Assembly: GCA_021780815.1 (NCBI GenBank)
Contig: JAJXYC010000015.1
Location: 337,796-401,795, forward strand
Length of the DNA stretch: 64,000 nucleotides
Direction of reading: 5' to 3'
Source of the DNA: Bacteroidota bacterium
Lineage (GTDB): Bacteria > Bacteroidota > Ignavibacteria > Kapaibacteriales > UBA2268
Under the pieces are notes generated by a model. The model did not search any database. It was given only the letters and a program-made list of their open reading frames with translations, and was not told where the DNA came from. How positions within the stretch are numbered: the stretch's first letter is position 1; every line of letters begins with the position of its first letter. This document shows, one piece after another, positions 58,962-63,484 of this stretch. The translations under genes were made by a program, and so were the position numbers.

Positions 58962-59435
58962 GTGAATAAAATGGTCAAGAATGCTGAAAAAGTCGAAATA
59001 GAGCCAATAACTGATTTGATATGCGAATTGACTCGTAATTGTGGAATAAAGGAAGATTATTTTGCACAACAGTTTAATTTAACACCAACTGAGCTAAGAT
59101 TTTTGAAATTGTTCGTGTTTTCATCTTCTTATACCAGCAAGGATTTATCAAAATTGCTAAATATTACACCAGGTAGAGTTACTCATATAGTAACTTCATT
59201 AGAGCAAAAAAAATTATTGCAAAGAACTAACAATGTCAATGATAAAAGAGTAATTAACGTGAGTCTTCAGCCACGTGCTACTTCTTTTATAGAAAATTTA
59301 TACTATGGTTACAATGAATTCCAGAAGAAGATACTTCAAGATGTTGGAGATGAGCAACTTAAAGTTATTCAAAACTCTCTTGAAATTTTAGTTGACATAT
59401 TTAAAAAATGGGTAAACGAAAAAAATACTTTATAA
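58962..59435 (+). CDS. MarR family transcriptional regulator
   Basis: TSKDLSKLLNITPGRVTHIVTSLEQKKLLQRTNNVNDKRVINVSLQPRA. Confidence 0.88.
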   Translation: MNKMVKNAEKVEIEPITDLICELTRNCGIKEDYFAQQFNLTPTELRFLKLFVFSSSYTSKDLSKLLNITPGRVTHIVTSLEQKKLLQRTNNVNDKRVINVSLQPRATSFIENLYYGYNEFQKKILQDVGDEQLKVIQNSLEILVDIFKKWVNEKNTL

Positions 59436-59503: not shown

Positions 59504-61072
59504 GTGAAAAAAATCGTATTATTACTTGCTTTTTTTAGTTTAGTTGTTATAGTGGCTATCGGGTATCTATCAGATAGAAATTACGAACCAACTATAGTCC
59601 AACAATTAAAGCAAAAGTATTCAAAAAAATATCCCAAAGATGTTGACCACAGCCGATTTCCTATTTTACAACAAAAATTTACCAGTCCACAACAAGTTAC
59701 AGAAGCTTGTGAATCTTGCCATAATTTAACTGCTCATCAAATAATGAATTCTAATCACTGGAATTGGGAAAGAGCAGAATTTATTAAAGGTAAGGGAATT
59801 GTGTATTTAGGAAAAGCAAATGCCATTAACAATTTCTGTATTGGTACAAAAGGGAACGAATTAAGCTGTGCAAAATGCCATATTGGCTACGGCATGGATT
59901 CAACTCGTAAAATTTTCGCAGATTCAACAAACATTGATTGTTTAGTGTGCCATGATAACACTGAAACTTATGCGAAAGCAGGCGAAAAAGGTGGAGCTCC
60001 TGCTCCAGGACTTGATTACAACAAAATTGCACAAAGTGTTGGAAAACCCAAAAGAACAAATTGCGGTGTTTGCCACTTTTATGGCGGTGGTGGAAACAAC
60101 GTTAAACACGGCGATTTAGAAATGTCTATGTTTGAGCCTACGAAAGAAGTTGATATTCATATGGGAACTGATGCACTAAACTTACAATGCGTTGATTGCC
60201 ATACTACAAAACAGCATATGATTTCGGGAAAACTATATTCATTAAGCTCAATGAATTTAAGTCGTGTAACTTGTGAACAATGCCACACTGAAACTCCACA
60301 CGAAAGCGACATCTTAAACGAACATACTTATAAGGTTGCTTGCCAAACTTGCCATATTCCAGTTTATTCTAAAGTAAATTCTACAAAAATGTACTGGGAT
60401 TGGTCAACTGCTGGAAGATTAAGAAATGGTGAACCTTACGAAATTGATGATAGTTTAGGTAACCACACTTATTTATCTATTAAAGGTAGTTTTATTTGGG
60501 CAAGAAATGTAAAGCCTGATTACATTTGGTTTAATGGAACCGCTTCTCACTATTTAGAGGGAGATGTTATTAACGATACAACAAAACCACTTGTGTTAAA
60601 TCCATTGCATGGCTCTTATAATGATTATGAATCAAAAATTATTCCAGTAAAAATTCACGTTGCAAAGCAACCTTTTGATCCTGTCAATAAAATACTAATT
60701 CAACCAAAGTTATATTCTCCTGAAAAAGGCGAAGGTGCTTTTTGGCAAGATTTTAATTGGATTACTGCCTCATCAGTTGGAATGAAAGATGCAGGATTAC
60801 CATTCAGTGGAAAAATTTCATTTATTAAAACTGAAATGTATTGGCCTATAAACCATATGGTATCCTCAAAAGAACAGTCAGTTCAATGTATTGAATGTCA
60901 TACAAGGAAAAACAGCCGTTTGGCAAAATTAAAAGATTTCTATATGCCCGGTCGTGATTACTCTCCATTTGTAGATATTGCTGGTAATTGGTTAATTATT
61001 TTAACTTTACTCGGAGTTTTAACACACGGAATATTAAGAATGTTTTCTTCAAAAAAATCAAAGAAGGTGTAA
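59504..61072 (+). CDS. Octaheme c-type cytochrome (octaheme tetrathionate reductase-like) with C-terminal TM
   Basis: Eight CxxCH motifs: CESCH, CAKCH, CLVCH, CGVCH, CVDCH, CEQCH, CQTCH, CIECH; N- and C-terminal hydrophobic helices. Start may be GTG. Confidence 0.85.
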   Translation: MKKIVLLLAFFSLVVIVAIGYLSDRNYEPTIVQQLKQKYSKKYPKDVDHSRFPILQQKFTSPQQVTEACESCHNLTAHQIMNSNHWNWERAEFIKGKGIVYLGKANAINNFCIGTKGNELSCAKCHIGYGMDSTRKIFADSTNIDCLVCHDNTETYAKAGEKGGAPAPGLDYNKIAQSVGKPKRTNCGVCHFYGGGGNNVKHGDLEMSMFEPTKEVDIHMGTDALNLQCVDCHTTKQHMISGKLYSLSSMNLSRVTCEQCHTETPHESDILNEHTYKVACQTCHIPVYSKVNSTKMYWDWSTAGRLRNGEPYEIDDSLGNHTYLSIKGSFIWARNVKPDYIWFNGTASHYLEGDVINDTTKPLVLNPLHGSYNDYESKIIPVKIHVAKQPFDPVNKILIQPKLYSPEKGEGAFWQDFNWITASSVGMKDAGLPFSGKISFIKTEMYWPINHMVSSKEQSVQCIECHTRKNSRLAKLKDFYMPGRDYSPFVDIAGNWLIILTLLGVLTHGILRMFSSKKSKKV

Positions 61073-61073
61073 A

Positions 61074-61739
61074 ATGAGTAAAAAGTTAGTTTATATTTAT
61101 AGAGGTTTCGAAAGGTTCTGGCATTGGATGCAAGCAATATTAATATTTTTCCTTGCCTTTACTGGATTTGAAATTCATGGCTCTTATACCTTCTTAGGTT
61201 ATAAAGATGCCGTAAGATACCATAATGTTGCGGCTTATATGCTTATTGTTTTAATCATATTTGCTATTTTTTGGCATCTTACAACAGGTGCTTGGAAACA
61301 ATATGTTCCCACAGCAAAAAATATTAAAGCACAACTTGATTATTACCTCTTTGGTATTTTCAGGAATGCTCCACACCCAACTAAAAAGACAGTATTAAGC
61401 AAATTGAATCCTTTGCAAAAACTCACTTATTTTGGATTAAAAATTTTAGTTATTCCTTTAAGTGTTACATCTGGCTTGCTTTATATGTTCTATCGTTATC
61501 CAACAAGACATGGAATTGATGCAATCAATGTTTCAACATTAAAGTATATAGCCATTTTCCATACTGTTGGTGCAATTTTACTTGTAGTTTTTATTATTAC
61601 TCATTTGTACTTAATTACAACAGGAGAAACAGTTACATCAAACTTAAAGGCAATGTTGACTGGTTATGAAGAATTAGACAGCGATGAGTCTTCAAAAGAC
61701 CAAGTTGGCGAAAAAGAAATTAATACAATAATTGAATAG
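61074..61739 (+). CDS. Membrane cytochrome b (thiosulfate reductase/PhsC- or FdnI-like)
   Basis: YRGFERFWHWMQAILIFFLAFTGFEIHG, VAAYMLIVLIIFAIFWHL, FHTVGAILLVVFIITHLYL. Confidence 0.88.
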   Translation: MSKKLVYIYRGFERFWHWMQAILIFFLAFTGFEIHGSYTFLGYKDAVRYHNVAAYMLIVLIIFAIFWHLTTGAWKQYVPTAKNIKAQLDYYLFGIFRNAPHPTKKTVLSKLNPLQKLTYFGLKILVIPLSVTSGLLYMFYRYPTRHGIDAINVSTLKYIAIFHTVGAILLVVFIITHLYLITTGETVTSNLKAMLTGYEELDSDESSKDQVGEKEINTIIE

Positions 61740-61747
61740 GTGAAGAA

Positions 61748-62269
61748 ATGGAAAAAGAAACAAAATATATGAATCCATACTTAGCTGGAGTCCTTTTAGG
61801 ATTACTCTTAATAGCTACAGTTTATATAACAGGTCGTGGTCTTGGTGCAAGTGGTGCTATTAAAAGTGTTGCAGTAACAGGCGTAGAAATAGTTGCACCA
61901 ACCCATACAGAAAACACAAAGTTTTATAAAGAATATTCCGCAGAACATCCAGGGAAAAGTCCGATGATGAATTGGCTTGTATTTGAAATTACTGGTGTGA
62001 TTATAGGTGCATTTATTTCAGGTTTAATATCGAACAGACTTGATTTAAAATTTGAAAAAGGTCCAAGGTCAACTACCAAAATGAGAGTTGCAGGCGCAAT
62101 TATTGGAGGTATCCTTTGGGGAATTGGTTCTCAATTAGGACGAGGTTGTACAAGTGGTGCAGCATTAAGTGGTATGGCTGTAATGTCCACTGGTGGTATA
62201 ATTACTATGTTTGCTATTTTTGGCGGAGCATACTTTTTTGCTTATTTCTTTAGAAAATTTTGGATTTAA
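61748..62269 (+). CDS. YeeE/YedE family (thiosulfate/sulfur transport) protein, first half
   Basis: GGILWGIGSQLGRGCTSGAALSGMAVMSTGGIITM. Confidence 0.9.
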   Translation: MEKETKYMNPYLAGVLLGLLLIATVYITGRGLGASGAIKSVAVTGVEIVAPTHTENTKFYKEYSAEHPGKSPMMNWLVFEITGVIIGAFISGLISNRLDLKFEKGPRSTTKMRVAGAIIGGILWGIGSQLGRGCTSGAALSGMAVMSTGGIITMFAIFGGAYFFAYFFRKFWI

Positions 62270-62284
62270 TAAGGAGAAATTATT

Positions 62285-63484
62285 ATGGGACCATTAGTGC
62301 CTGATTTAGTCAGTAATAATATGAACTTTATTGTTGCTTTTATTATTGGTATTTTCTTTGGAGCAATTCTTGAACAAGCAGGATTTTCAACTTCTAAAAA
62401 ATTAGTTGGTTTGTTTTATGGTTATGATTTCACGGTCTTAAGAGTATTCTTTACCGCAGGACTTGTCGCCATGATTGGGGTTATGGCTTTGGATCATTTA
62501 GGATTGATTGATGTCAATTTAATTTATATTAATCCTACGTTCCTGACCTCTGCAATTGTCGGCGGCGTTATTATGGGATTGGGATTTGTGGTTGGTGGAT
62601 TTTGTCCCGGAACAAGTATTTGTGCCGCATCGATTGGCAAAATTGATGCAATGATATTTGTTGGTGGTGCAATCCTCGGTGTTATTATCTTCGGAGAAGG
62701 TTACCCGATGTTTGAAGGCTTGTATATGGCTAATAATATGGGTAGTCCACAAATGTTCCAAACTCTCGGCATATCGGAAGGCTTGTTTGCCTTTTTATTT
62801 GTCGTTCTTGGATTAGCTTCTTTTTGGTTCACTTCAATTATTGAAAATAAAGTAAATGGAATTAAAAAACCTGCTATTCGTTTCACTCCATATTATTTAA
62901 GTATGGCTTTAATTGGTGTGTTGCTTGCTTTATCTGCTTTTGTGTTCACTGATAGAAAATCTGAGCTTAATGCAAAAATTCAAGATATGAACTATGTTAA
63001 TTCTTTTCCACTTGATACTATGAATGTAGATGAATTTGCTTTATGTATAACAAAAATATTAGAATGCGACAAATATCAAGGAGTTGATTTTAGGTCAGAA
63101 AAAGAACAAGCAAAATTCCCTTTACCCAAAACAGTTAGTATGACCGAAAACAGTTTGTTCGAAAAGAATACTTTTAAAACTTTAAATATTAGAAATAAAA
63201 TTAATATCTTTATTGCTGATGATGAATTAACTGAACGCAAAATGGCAATAATTGCAACTGAACTCGGTTATCAAAATATACGTATTCTTCGTGGGGGGTT
63301 AAATAATTTTGTTTCCACAATTTTAAACTTTAAACCAATAGAAAACCCAACAACAAAAGAAGAAGAATATACTAATCGCTTTAGACTTTATGCATCACAA
63401 AAAATTCCTCAAATACTAAAAGATTATAAACCTCTTCCTAAATCAAATGACAATAAACCAAAGCGCATAGTTGGCGGATGCTAA
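62285..63484 (+). CDS. YeeE/YedE family protein with C-terminal degenerate rhodanese-like domain
   Basis: GAILEQAGFSTSKK; GLGFVVGGFCPGTSICAASIGKIDAM; C-terminal INIFIADDELTERKMAIIATELGYQNIRILRGGLNNF; ends KRIVGGC. Confidence 0.88.
   Translation: MGPLVPDLVSNNMNFIVAFIIGIFFGAILEQAGFSTSKKLVGLFYGYDFTVLRVFFTAGLVAMIGVMALDHLGLIDVNLIYINPTFLTSAIVGGVIMGLGFVVGGFCPGTSICAASIGKIDAMIFVGGAILGVIIFGEGYPMFEGLYMANNMGSPQMFQTLGISEGLFAFLFVVLGLASFWFTSIIENKVNGIKKPAIRFTPYYLSMALIGVLLALSAFVFTDRKSELNAKIQDMNYVNSFPLDTMNVDEFALCITKILECDKYQGVDFRSEKEQAKFPLPKTVSMTENSLFEKNTFKTLNIRNKINIFIADDELTERKMAIIATELGYQNIRILRGGLNNFVSTILNFKPIENPTTKEEEYTNRFRLYASQKIPQILKDYKPLPKSNDNKPKRIVGGC

Follow-up and report, generated by a model that had tools for sequence, protein, structure and literature searches.

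In the thiosulfate uptake system YeeE-YeeD (TsuA-TsuB; StYeeE-StYeeD structures 8J4C and 8K1R), a cysteine relay runs from outside to inside, with C293 of the channel first, C91 second, C22 third and C17 of the cytoplasmic YeeD fourth, and natural YeeE-YeeD fusions exist (PMC11073785). How sulfur is handed over from the periplasm to channels of the YeeE/SoxT type is an open question; for the YeeE-like SoxT, transfer from the SoxY Cys to a channel Cys has been called conceivable (PMC11582611), and in lucinid symbionts a SoxY variant is encoded beside an octaheme tetrathionate reductase (PMC11237559). Here we describe a stretch of 64,000 nucleotides from a Bacteroidota bacterium (contig JAJXYC010000015.1, assembly GCA_021780815.1; hereafter 'the window'), in which the operon of an octaheme c-type cytochrome includes a gene for YeeE2-Rhd-GGC, a protein that consists, in this order, of half a split YeeE/YedE channel, a sixth transmembrane helix, a rhodanese-fold domain that lacks the catalytic Cys, and a tail ending ...KPKRIVGGC-stop, an end already noted when the DNA was read without database searches (the sequence-only reading). 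We think it rather probable that this tail serves as a thiol arm, tethered in the periplasm, on which sulfane sulfur travels between a sulfur enzyme and the split channel. The channel family is that of YeeE-YeeD, and in both systems a partner thiol adjoins a Cys relay, but YeeD is cytoplasmic, TusA-like and located on the exit side, whereas the extra thiol described here would lie on the periplasmic side. The features of the gene, in window coordinates, are:

62285..63484, plus strand: YeeE2-Rhd-GGC fusion gene, 399 residues (open reading frame, Pfam, AlphaFold2 model)
62387..62389, plus strand: Ser35, where StYeeE has its third Cys (C22, on the cytoplasmic side)
62603..62605, plus strand: Cys107 codon (GFCPGTS); its counterpart in the StYeeE alignment is C91, the second Cys of the channel
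62888..62944, plus strand: sixth transmembrane helix, residues 202-220 (model helix 202-220, loop charges, alignment with standalone anchors)
63002..63325, plus strand: rhodanese-fold domain, residues ~240-347 (Pfam, AlphaFold2 model, Foldseek, PDB profile matches)
63215..63238, plus strand: degenerate active-site loop ADDELTER replacing CRxGxR (70-row alignment)
63356..63424, plus strand: helix 358-380 with the invariant F366, leading into the tail (model and conservation)
63425..63484, plus strand: disordered basic tail K-[RK]-[VI]-x-G-G-C-stop, residues 381-399 (predicted local distance difference test, pLDDT, down to 48; tail charge)
63479..63481, plus strand: codon of the terminal Cys399 (translation of the open reading frame, homologue ends, alignment)

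Residues 1-220 match Sulf_transp (PF04143, 2.2e-13), with YeeE2 spanning profile positions 4-196, while the Rhodanese match of the fused protein is weak (PF00581, 18.2 bits against a cut-off of 22.2), unlike that of the standalone tailed domains scanned (described below), which score above the Pfam cut-off. In an AlphaFold2 model built from an alignment of 70 homologues (the 70-row alignment), the soluble domain is well defined over residues ~231-380 (pLDDT mostly >90), and helix 358-380 is followed by the disordered tail 381-399. The modelled domain is predicted to have a rhodanese fold: the best PDB matches by Foldseek are rhodaneses, including RDL2 (6k6r, E 1.1e-4), and a profile search of PDB sequences also yields rhodaneses. 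A cutinase, the only PDB match in a sequence search with the fused protein, was judged spurious. The fold is shared with the catalytic single-domain rhodaneses GlpE, PspE and RDL2, but unlike these the domain has neither the catalytic Cys nor the CRxGxR loop and has instead a conserved tail Cys. At position 311, the site of the catalytic Cys, the 70 aligned homologues have Ala (51), Gly (12), Ser (4) or Asp (3) and never Cys, and the surrounding loop (ADDE instead of CRxGxR) is variable in its residues and acidic in most homologues. A rhodanese Cys merely misplaced by the alignment is thereby ruled out, and the domain is probably no longer catalytic. The sequence-only reading was thus right about a rhodanese-like domain without catalytic Cys; the interval it gave (62972-63484) holds that domain but begins inside the open reading frame, at residue 230, after the last predicted transmembrane helix.

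The tail Cys, by comparison, is retained almost without exception. One scan of genome contigs gave 80 fused homologues, whose record labels, mostly from metagenome bins and possibly wrong, include Ignavibacteria, Bacteroidota (including Prolixibacteraceae), KSB1, LCP-89, Acidobacteriota, Planctomycetales, Chthonomonadia, Elusimicrobiales and others. Seventy-eight ends could be assessed (L068 is cut short by the end of its contig and L092 by a run of Ns; L079 was counted via a frameshift, its other frame ending in GGC). GGC with zero to three further residues terminates 77 of these 78, in the forms GGC, GGCG, GGCS, GGCGV, GGCGI, GGCGS and GGCAID, the only deviation being L050, which ends in VGC; all 14 near orthologues terminate in GGC. 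Conservation of the terminal Cys across the fusions, on which the sequence-only reading had staked its proposal beforehand, is thus borne out. Within the 70-row alignment the only invariant cysteines are C107 in the channel and C399 in the tail, and between residues 221 and 399 only P281, F366, G398 and C399 are 100% conserved. The tail consensus is K-[RK]-[VI]-x-G-G-C, the 14 residues preceding the Cys have a mean net charge of +3.4, and the spacing from F366 to the Cys varies from 31 to 36. As a control, among 632 open reading frames of at least 150 residues in the homologous loci, five non-target frames end in Cys (~1%) and none in GGC. A second control was a loose rhodanese sequence pattern in the same clade, which in its first version comprised nine proteins and in its second 16, some of which may not be rhodaneses: none of the 16 ends in GC, and 10 have a loop Cys. 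The homologue ends together with both controls rule out chance or poor conservation of the terminal Cys, and the GC tail as a general rhodanese feature was likewise rejected on the second, small control. At one locus (L189:10813-12005, genome G064) YeeE2-Rhd occurs as two open reading frames of 151 and 241 residues, the second ending in GGC; this could be either a frameshift or a true split.

The tail had been likened to both SoxY and DsrC. The first comparison is supported by the motif, which resembles real SoxY ends; in the proteins measured here these read ...EVKVTIGGCGG. SoxY (PF13501) and the tailed domain both have Gly-Gly-Cys at or near the C-terminus, borne in the periplasmic SoxY on a swinging arm after a [VTI]-rich stretch, and the tailed domain would be periplasmic too. 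Some ends of the fused homologues (GGCG, GGCGV, GGCGS) are SoxY-like; the full GGCGG is not among them. In contrast to SoxY, the tailed domain has a rhodanese fold and is tethered to the membrane through YeeE, and no PF13501 match was found in the fused protein by Pfam scan or in the genome of the window. Since the folds are unrelated, the GGC likeness would reflect a convergence of function, and a Gly-Gly-Cys arm would have arisen a second time, independently of SoxY. The likeness to DsrC is loose, two conserved C-terminal cysteines standing against one invariant tail Cys; family-profile scans of the fused protein gave no DsrC match, its fold being that of a rhodanese.

Upstream of the fusion gene, the window encodes the other half of the channel and the candidate partner enzyme:

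58962..59435, plus strand: MarR-family regulator, 5' of the operon (Pfam MarR, 2.6e-8)
59504..61072, plus strand: octaheme c-type cytochrome, 'tetrathionate reductase family' TIGR04315 (569 bits against a cut-off of 375)
61074..61739, plus strand: membrane cytochrome b561, thiosulfate-reductase-cytochrome-b-like (PF01292, 8.9e-26; PRK15006, 108.8 bits, below cut-off)
61748..62269, plus strand: YeeE1, half of the split YeeE/YedE channel, corresponding to the C-terminal half of StYeeE (PF04143 profile 174-309; 8j4c residues 237-329, E 7.5e-7)
62147..62149, plus strand: Cys134 codon of YeeE1 (GRGCTSG); its counterpart in the StYeeE alignment is C293, the first (entry) Cys

YeeE1 aligns with residues 237-329 of StYeeE and YeeE2 with residues 5-93, which suggests that one channel is built from two genes, the gene for its C-terminal half standing first; the matches to the YeeE/YedE profile (PF04143) and to the structural homologue span both halves, and thiosulfate transport is its putative function. 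The first and second relay cysteines are retained, C107 in all 70 homologues and C134 as the only Cys of YeeE1 in 64 of 67. The third relay position is Ser35 (Ser in 69 of 70), the equivalent of C22 being gone, and the three-Cys relay of StYeeE is thus incomplete. No TusA-family match was found in any family-f1 genome searched (G000-G023), though YeeE channels are present there. With Ser for the third Cys and no TusA match, the known relay appears reduced at its cytoplasmic end, and the extra thiol would lie on the opposite side. The loop charge pattern of YeeE2-Rhd suggests that loops 34-45 and 192-201 face inwards, with the N-terminus and the domain beyond helix 6 on the outside, so that the soluble domain would reach the periplasm by way of the sixth helix. 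Further pointers to this side are the octaheme c cytochrome as partner, the twin-Arg start of the molybdenum (Mo) subunit found in related operons, and a lipoprotein-like paralogue at locus L116 that bears the same tail; c-type heme attachment and a twin-arginine start both agree with a periplasmic location.

The cytochrome falls within TIGR04315 by its score above the curated cut-off and by its eight CXXCH motifs, a number also found in 67 of 74 homologues; tetrathionate is a putative substrate, and the cytochrome b561 is presumed to be the quinone side. Octaheme cytochrome, cytochrome b, YeeE1 and YeeE2-Rhd occur together and in that order in 78 of the 80 loci, the two others (L057 and L088) being contig ends; in L084 and L094 cytochrome b and YeeE1 lie ~1-1.4 kilobases (kb) apart. 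No further neighbour is as widespread as these four genes across the 80 loci: a dedicated extra downstream gene was rejected, none being recurrent, and the MarR-like gene is present in a minority.

The tailed domain also occurs on its own. In this standalone form, found in related genomes, the fifth helix of YeeE2 is its last; the gene that follows starts with an N-terminal anchor, to which the sixth helix of the fusion corresponds by alignment, and continues with a rhodanese-fold domain and a basic tail ending in (E/D/A/G)GC, GGGGC or RMGC. GC terminates all 32 standalone versions collected (31 distinct), in 25 of which the terminal Cys is the sole Cys. The operon reads MerR - PhsA-like Mo enzyme - iron-sulfur (FeS) protein - NrfD - YeeE1 - YeeE2 - Rhd-GC; YeeE1 and YeeE2 lie upstream of the standalone gene in 22 of 22 loci, and NrfD lies within the 1.5-kb flank in most of them. 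At L111:1483-15668 (genome G012) dsrA, sat and aprA occur together with the PhsA-like/YeeE/tailed-rhodanese operon within ~14 kb. In a third lineage (L238:5897-9905 and L242:5964-10025) the unit comprises a two-domain rhodanese, which is 3-mercaptopyruvate-sulfurtransferase-like and has an N-terminal signal-like segment, YeeE1, YeeE2, a Rhd ending in RMGC and a cysteine desulfurase of the SufS-like kind, and the L238/L242 unit has no redox enzyme. Thus split channel and tailed domain are constant, adjoining or fused in every complete locus examined, while the partner enzyme is swapped between octaheme cytochrome, Mo enzyme and sulfurtransferase. Tandem copies of the tailed rhodanese occur at L239:5627-6914, a duplication with both copies ending in PEGGC, and at L116:18021-19220, where both end in GGGGC and one has a catalytic loop Cys and a lipobox-like signal.

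Two published gene neighbourhoods overlap with these. According to the matching passages of PMC6338057, a cluster of 'Ca. Thermonerobacter' comprises MerR-psrABC, two DUF395 genes and a rhodanese, its psrABC resembling that of Melioribacter roseus and Ignavibacterium album; this is the same kind of neighbourhood as our standalone (split) version, and those passages mention neither the missing loop Cys nor the GC tail nor the octaheme version. For Ignavibacteriae bacterium Ch128a, an octaheme tetrathionate reductase and a cytochrome b561 have been annotated, the matching passages of PMC7509429 naming only this cytochrome pair and no tail; in the sequence of this isolate (L063) YeeE1 and YeeE2-Rhd-GGC lie directly 3' of the pair. 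No report of a Cys-less rhodanese with a GGC tail was found in open-access full texts, subscription papers lying outside the search, and such a tail on such a domain seems to be previously undescribed.

In light of these data, YeeE1 and YeeE2 would form one split YeeE-type sulfur channel, from which YeeE2 would extend through its sixth helix into a periplasmic rhodanese-fold domain serving as a non-catalytic, tethered platform. The terminal Gly-Gly-Cys thiol on the flexible basic tail would hold sulfane sulfur, as a persulfide or Cys-S-thiosulfonate, and swing between the periplasmic channel mouth and a periplasmic sulfur enzyme, which in the window would be the octaheme cytochrome, fed by cytochrome b561. 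That sulfur sits on the tail instead of the loop, as the sequence-only reading had proposed, is partly supported: it fits the conservation of the tail Cys where the loop Cys is lost, the flexible basic tail and the linkage to split YeeE. That reading had sulfur passing from channel to tail; the channel may equally be the acceptor, since the recurrent partners are periplasmic sulfur enzymes, and we lean towards the reverse direction, in which sulfur would be captured in the periplasm and delivered towards the channel, given that known YeeE proteins import and that the unit also lies between a sulfurtransferase and a desulfurase. The sulfurtransferase context also suggests that the arm handles sulfur, not electrons. 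An independent hint at a carrier is the published SoxY variant whose gene neighbours that of an octaheme tetrathionate reductase (PMC11237559).

Several observations weigh against such a carrier. The rhodanese body is partly conserved too, so the tail may serve a function other than sulfur carriage. Loss of the C22 equivalent is not specific to the arm and was rejected as its hallmark, as at least one other split YeeE without this operon (L024) also lacks it. Finally, in three standalone domains (L022b, L151 and L155) the tail Cys is accompanied by a Cys at the loop position. In L151 and L155 this Cys lies within YCE and may have been retained or regained; the N-terminus of L022b appears lipoprotein-like (LVSC; lipobox read by eye), which would place its tail outside the cytoplasm.

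Conserved fold residues (D268, R270 and P281) would favour a different use of the tail, namely that its Cys folds into the vacated loop of the same domain as a relocated catalytic Cys, and docking of a basic tail onto a loop that is acidic (ADDE) in most homologues is plausible. Nevertheless, we regard such self-complementation as unlikely: the loop is acidic where an anion-binding one would be needed, and its residues vary, which does not suit an active pocket; the model shows the tail as disordered, and its Cys stands at a variable distance from F366. The Cys might also be structural, bonded as a disulfide to YeeE1, which has one conserved Cys, or to YeeE2, or else act as a metal site or as a heme ligand of the octaheme cytochrome, akin to the Cys-ligated hemes of thiosulfate dehydrogenases TsdA (PMC9562282). 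The occurrence of the tail in Mo-enzyme and sulfurtransferase operons, which contain no cytochrome, makes this improbable, and Gly-Gly-Cys on a flexible basic tail better suits an accessible, reactive thiol than a fixed bond.

A sensor or gate, in which reactive sulfur modifies the thiol and the basic tail then opens or closes off the channel but passes no sulfur on, would account for a basic tail beside an anion channel, and related transporters can act in signalling (SoxT1B, PMC11582611); yet the module is tied to sulfur enzymes, the regulators beside it vary (MarR, MerR or none recognised) and a gate has no need of an exposed SoxY-like GGC end, all of which renders this very improbable. Low-complexity basic tails are common, and the tail could be kept for complex assembly or protein stability with a non-reactive Cys, but this we would hardly expect when that Cys and the preceding Gly are invariant in 70 of 70 sequences while the rest of the tail varies, and when Cys is so scarce at protein ends. 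A tethered thiol arm that exchanges sulfur with enzyme and channel is the reading we prefer.

We cautiously incline to the broader view that these proteins represent a separate class of swinging-arm carriers, in which a rhodanese anchored periplasmically on a split YeeE channel has given a C-terminal GGC thiol the place of its catalytic Cys, so that sulfur would be passed between respiratory sulfur enzymes and the channel without free diffusion and different redox enzymes (octaheme cytochrome, Mo enzyme) or a sulfurtransferase could plug into one channel-arm unit. In uncultured Ignavibacteria, Bacteroidota, Acidobacteriota and others, many operons of the 'octaheme tetrathionate reductase' or Psr/Phs-like kind would thereby be given a suggested role, and a candidate hand-over thiol covalently fused to a channel subunit makes the question of periplasmic hand-over approachable with one Cys mutant. 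The converse arrangement, octaheme cytochrome and cytochrome b without the channel, is found in Chlorobiaceae-like genomes (a group name that we infer). Octaheme cytochrome and cytochrome b561 occur with neither YeeE nor rhodanese at L180-L183 and L197, and L184, L187, L188, L190 and L191 encode solitary short octaheme proteins of ~460 residues.
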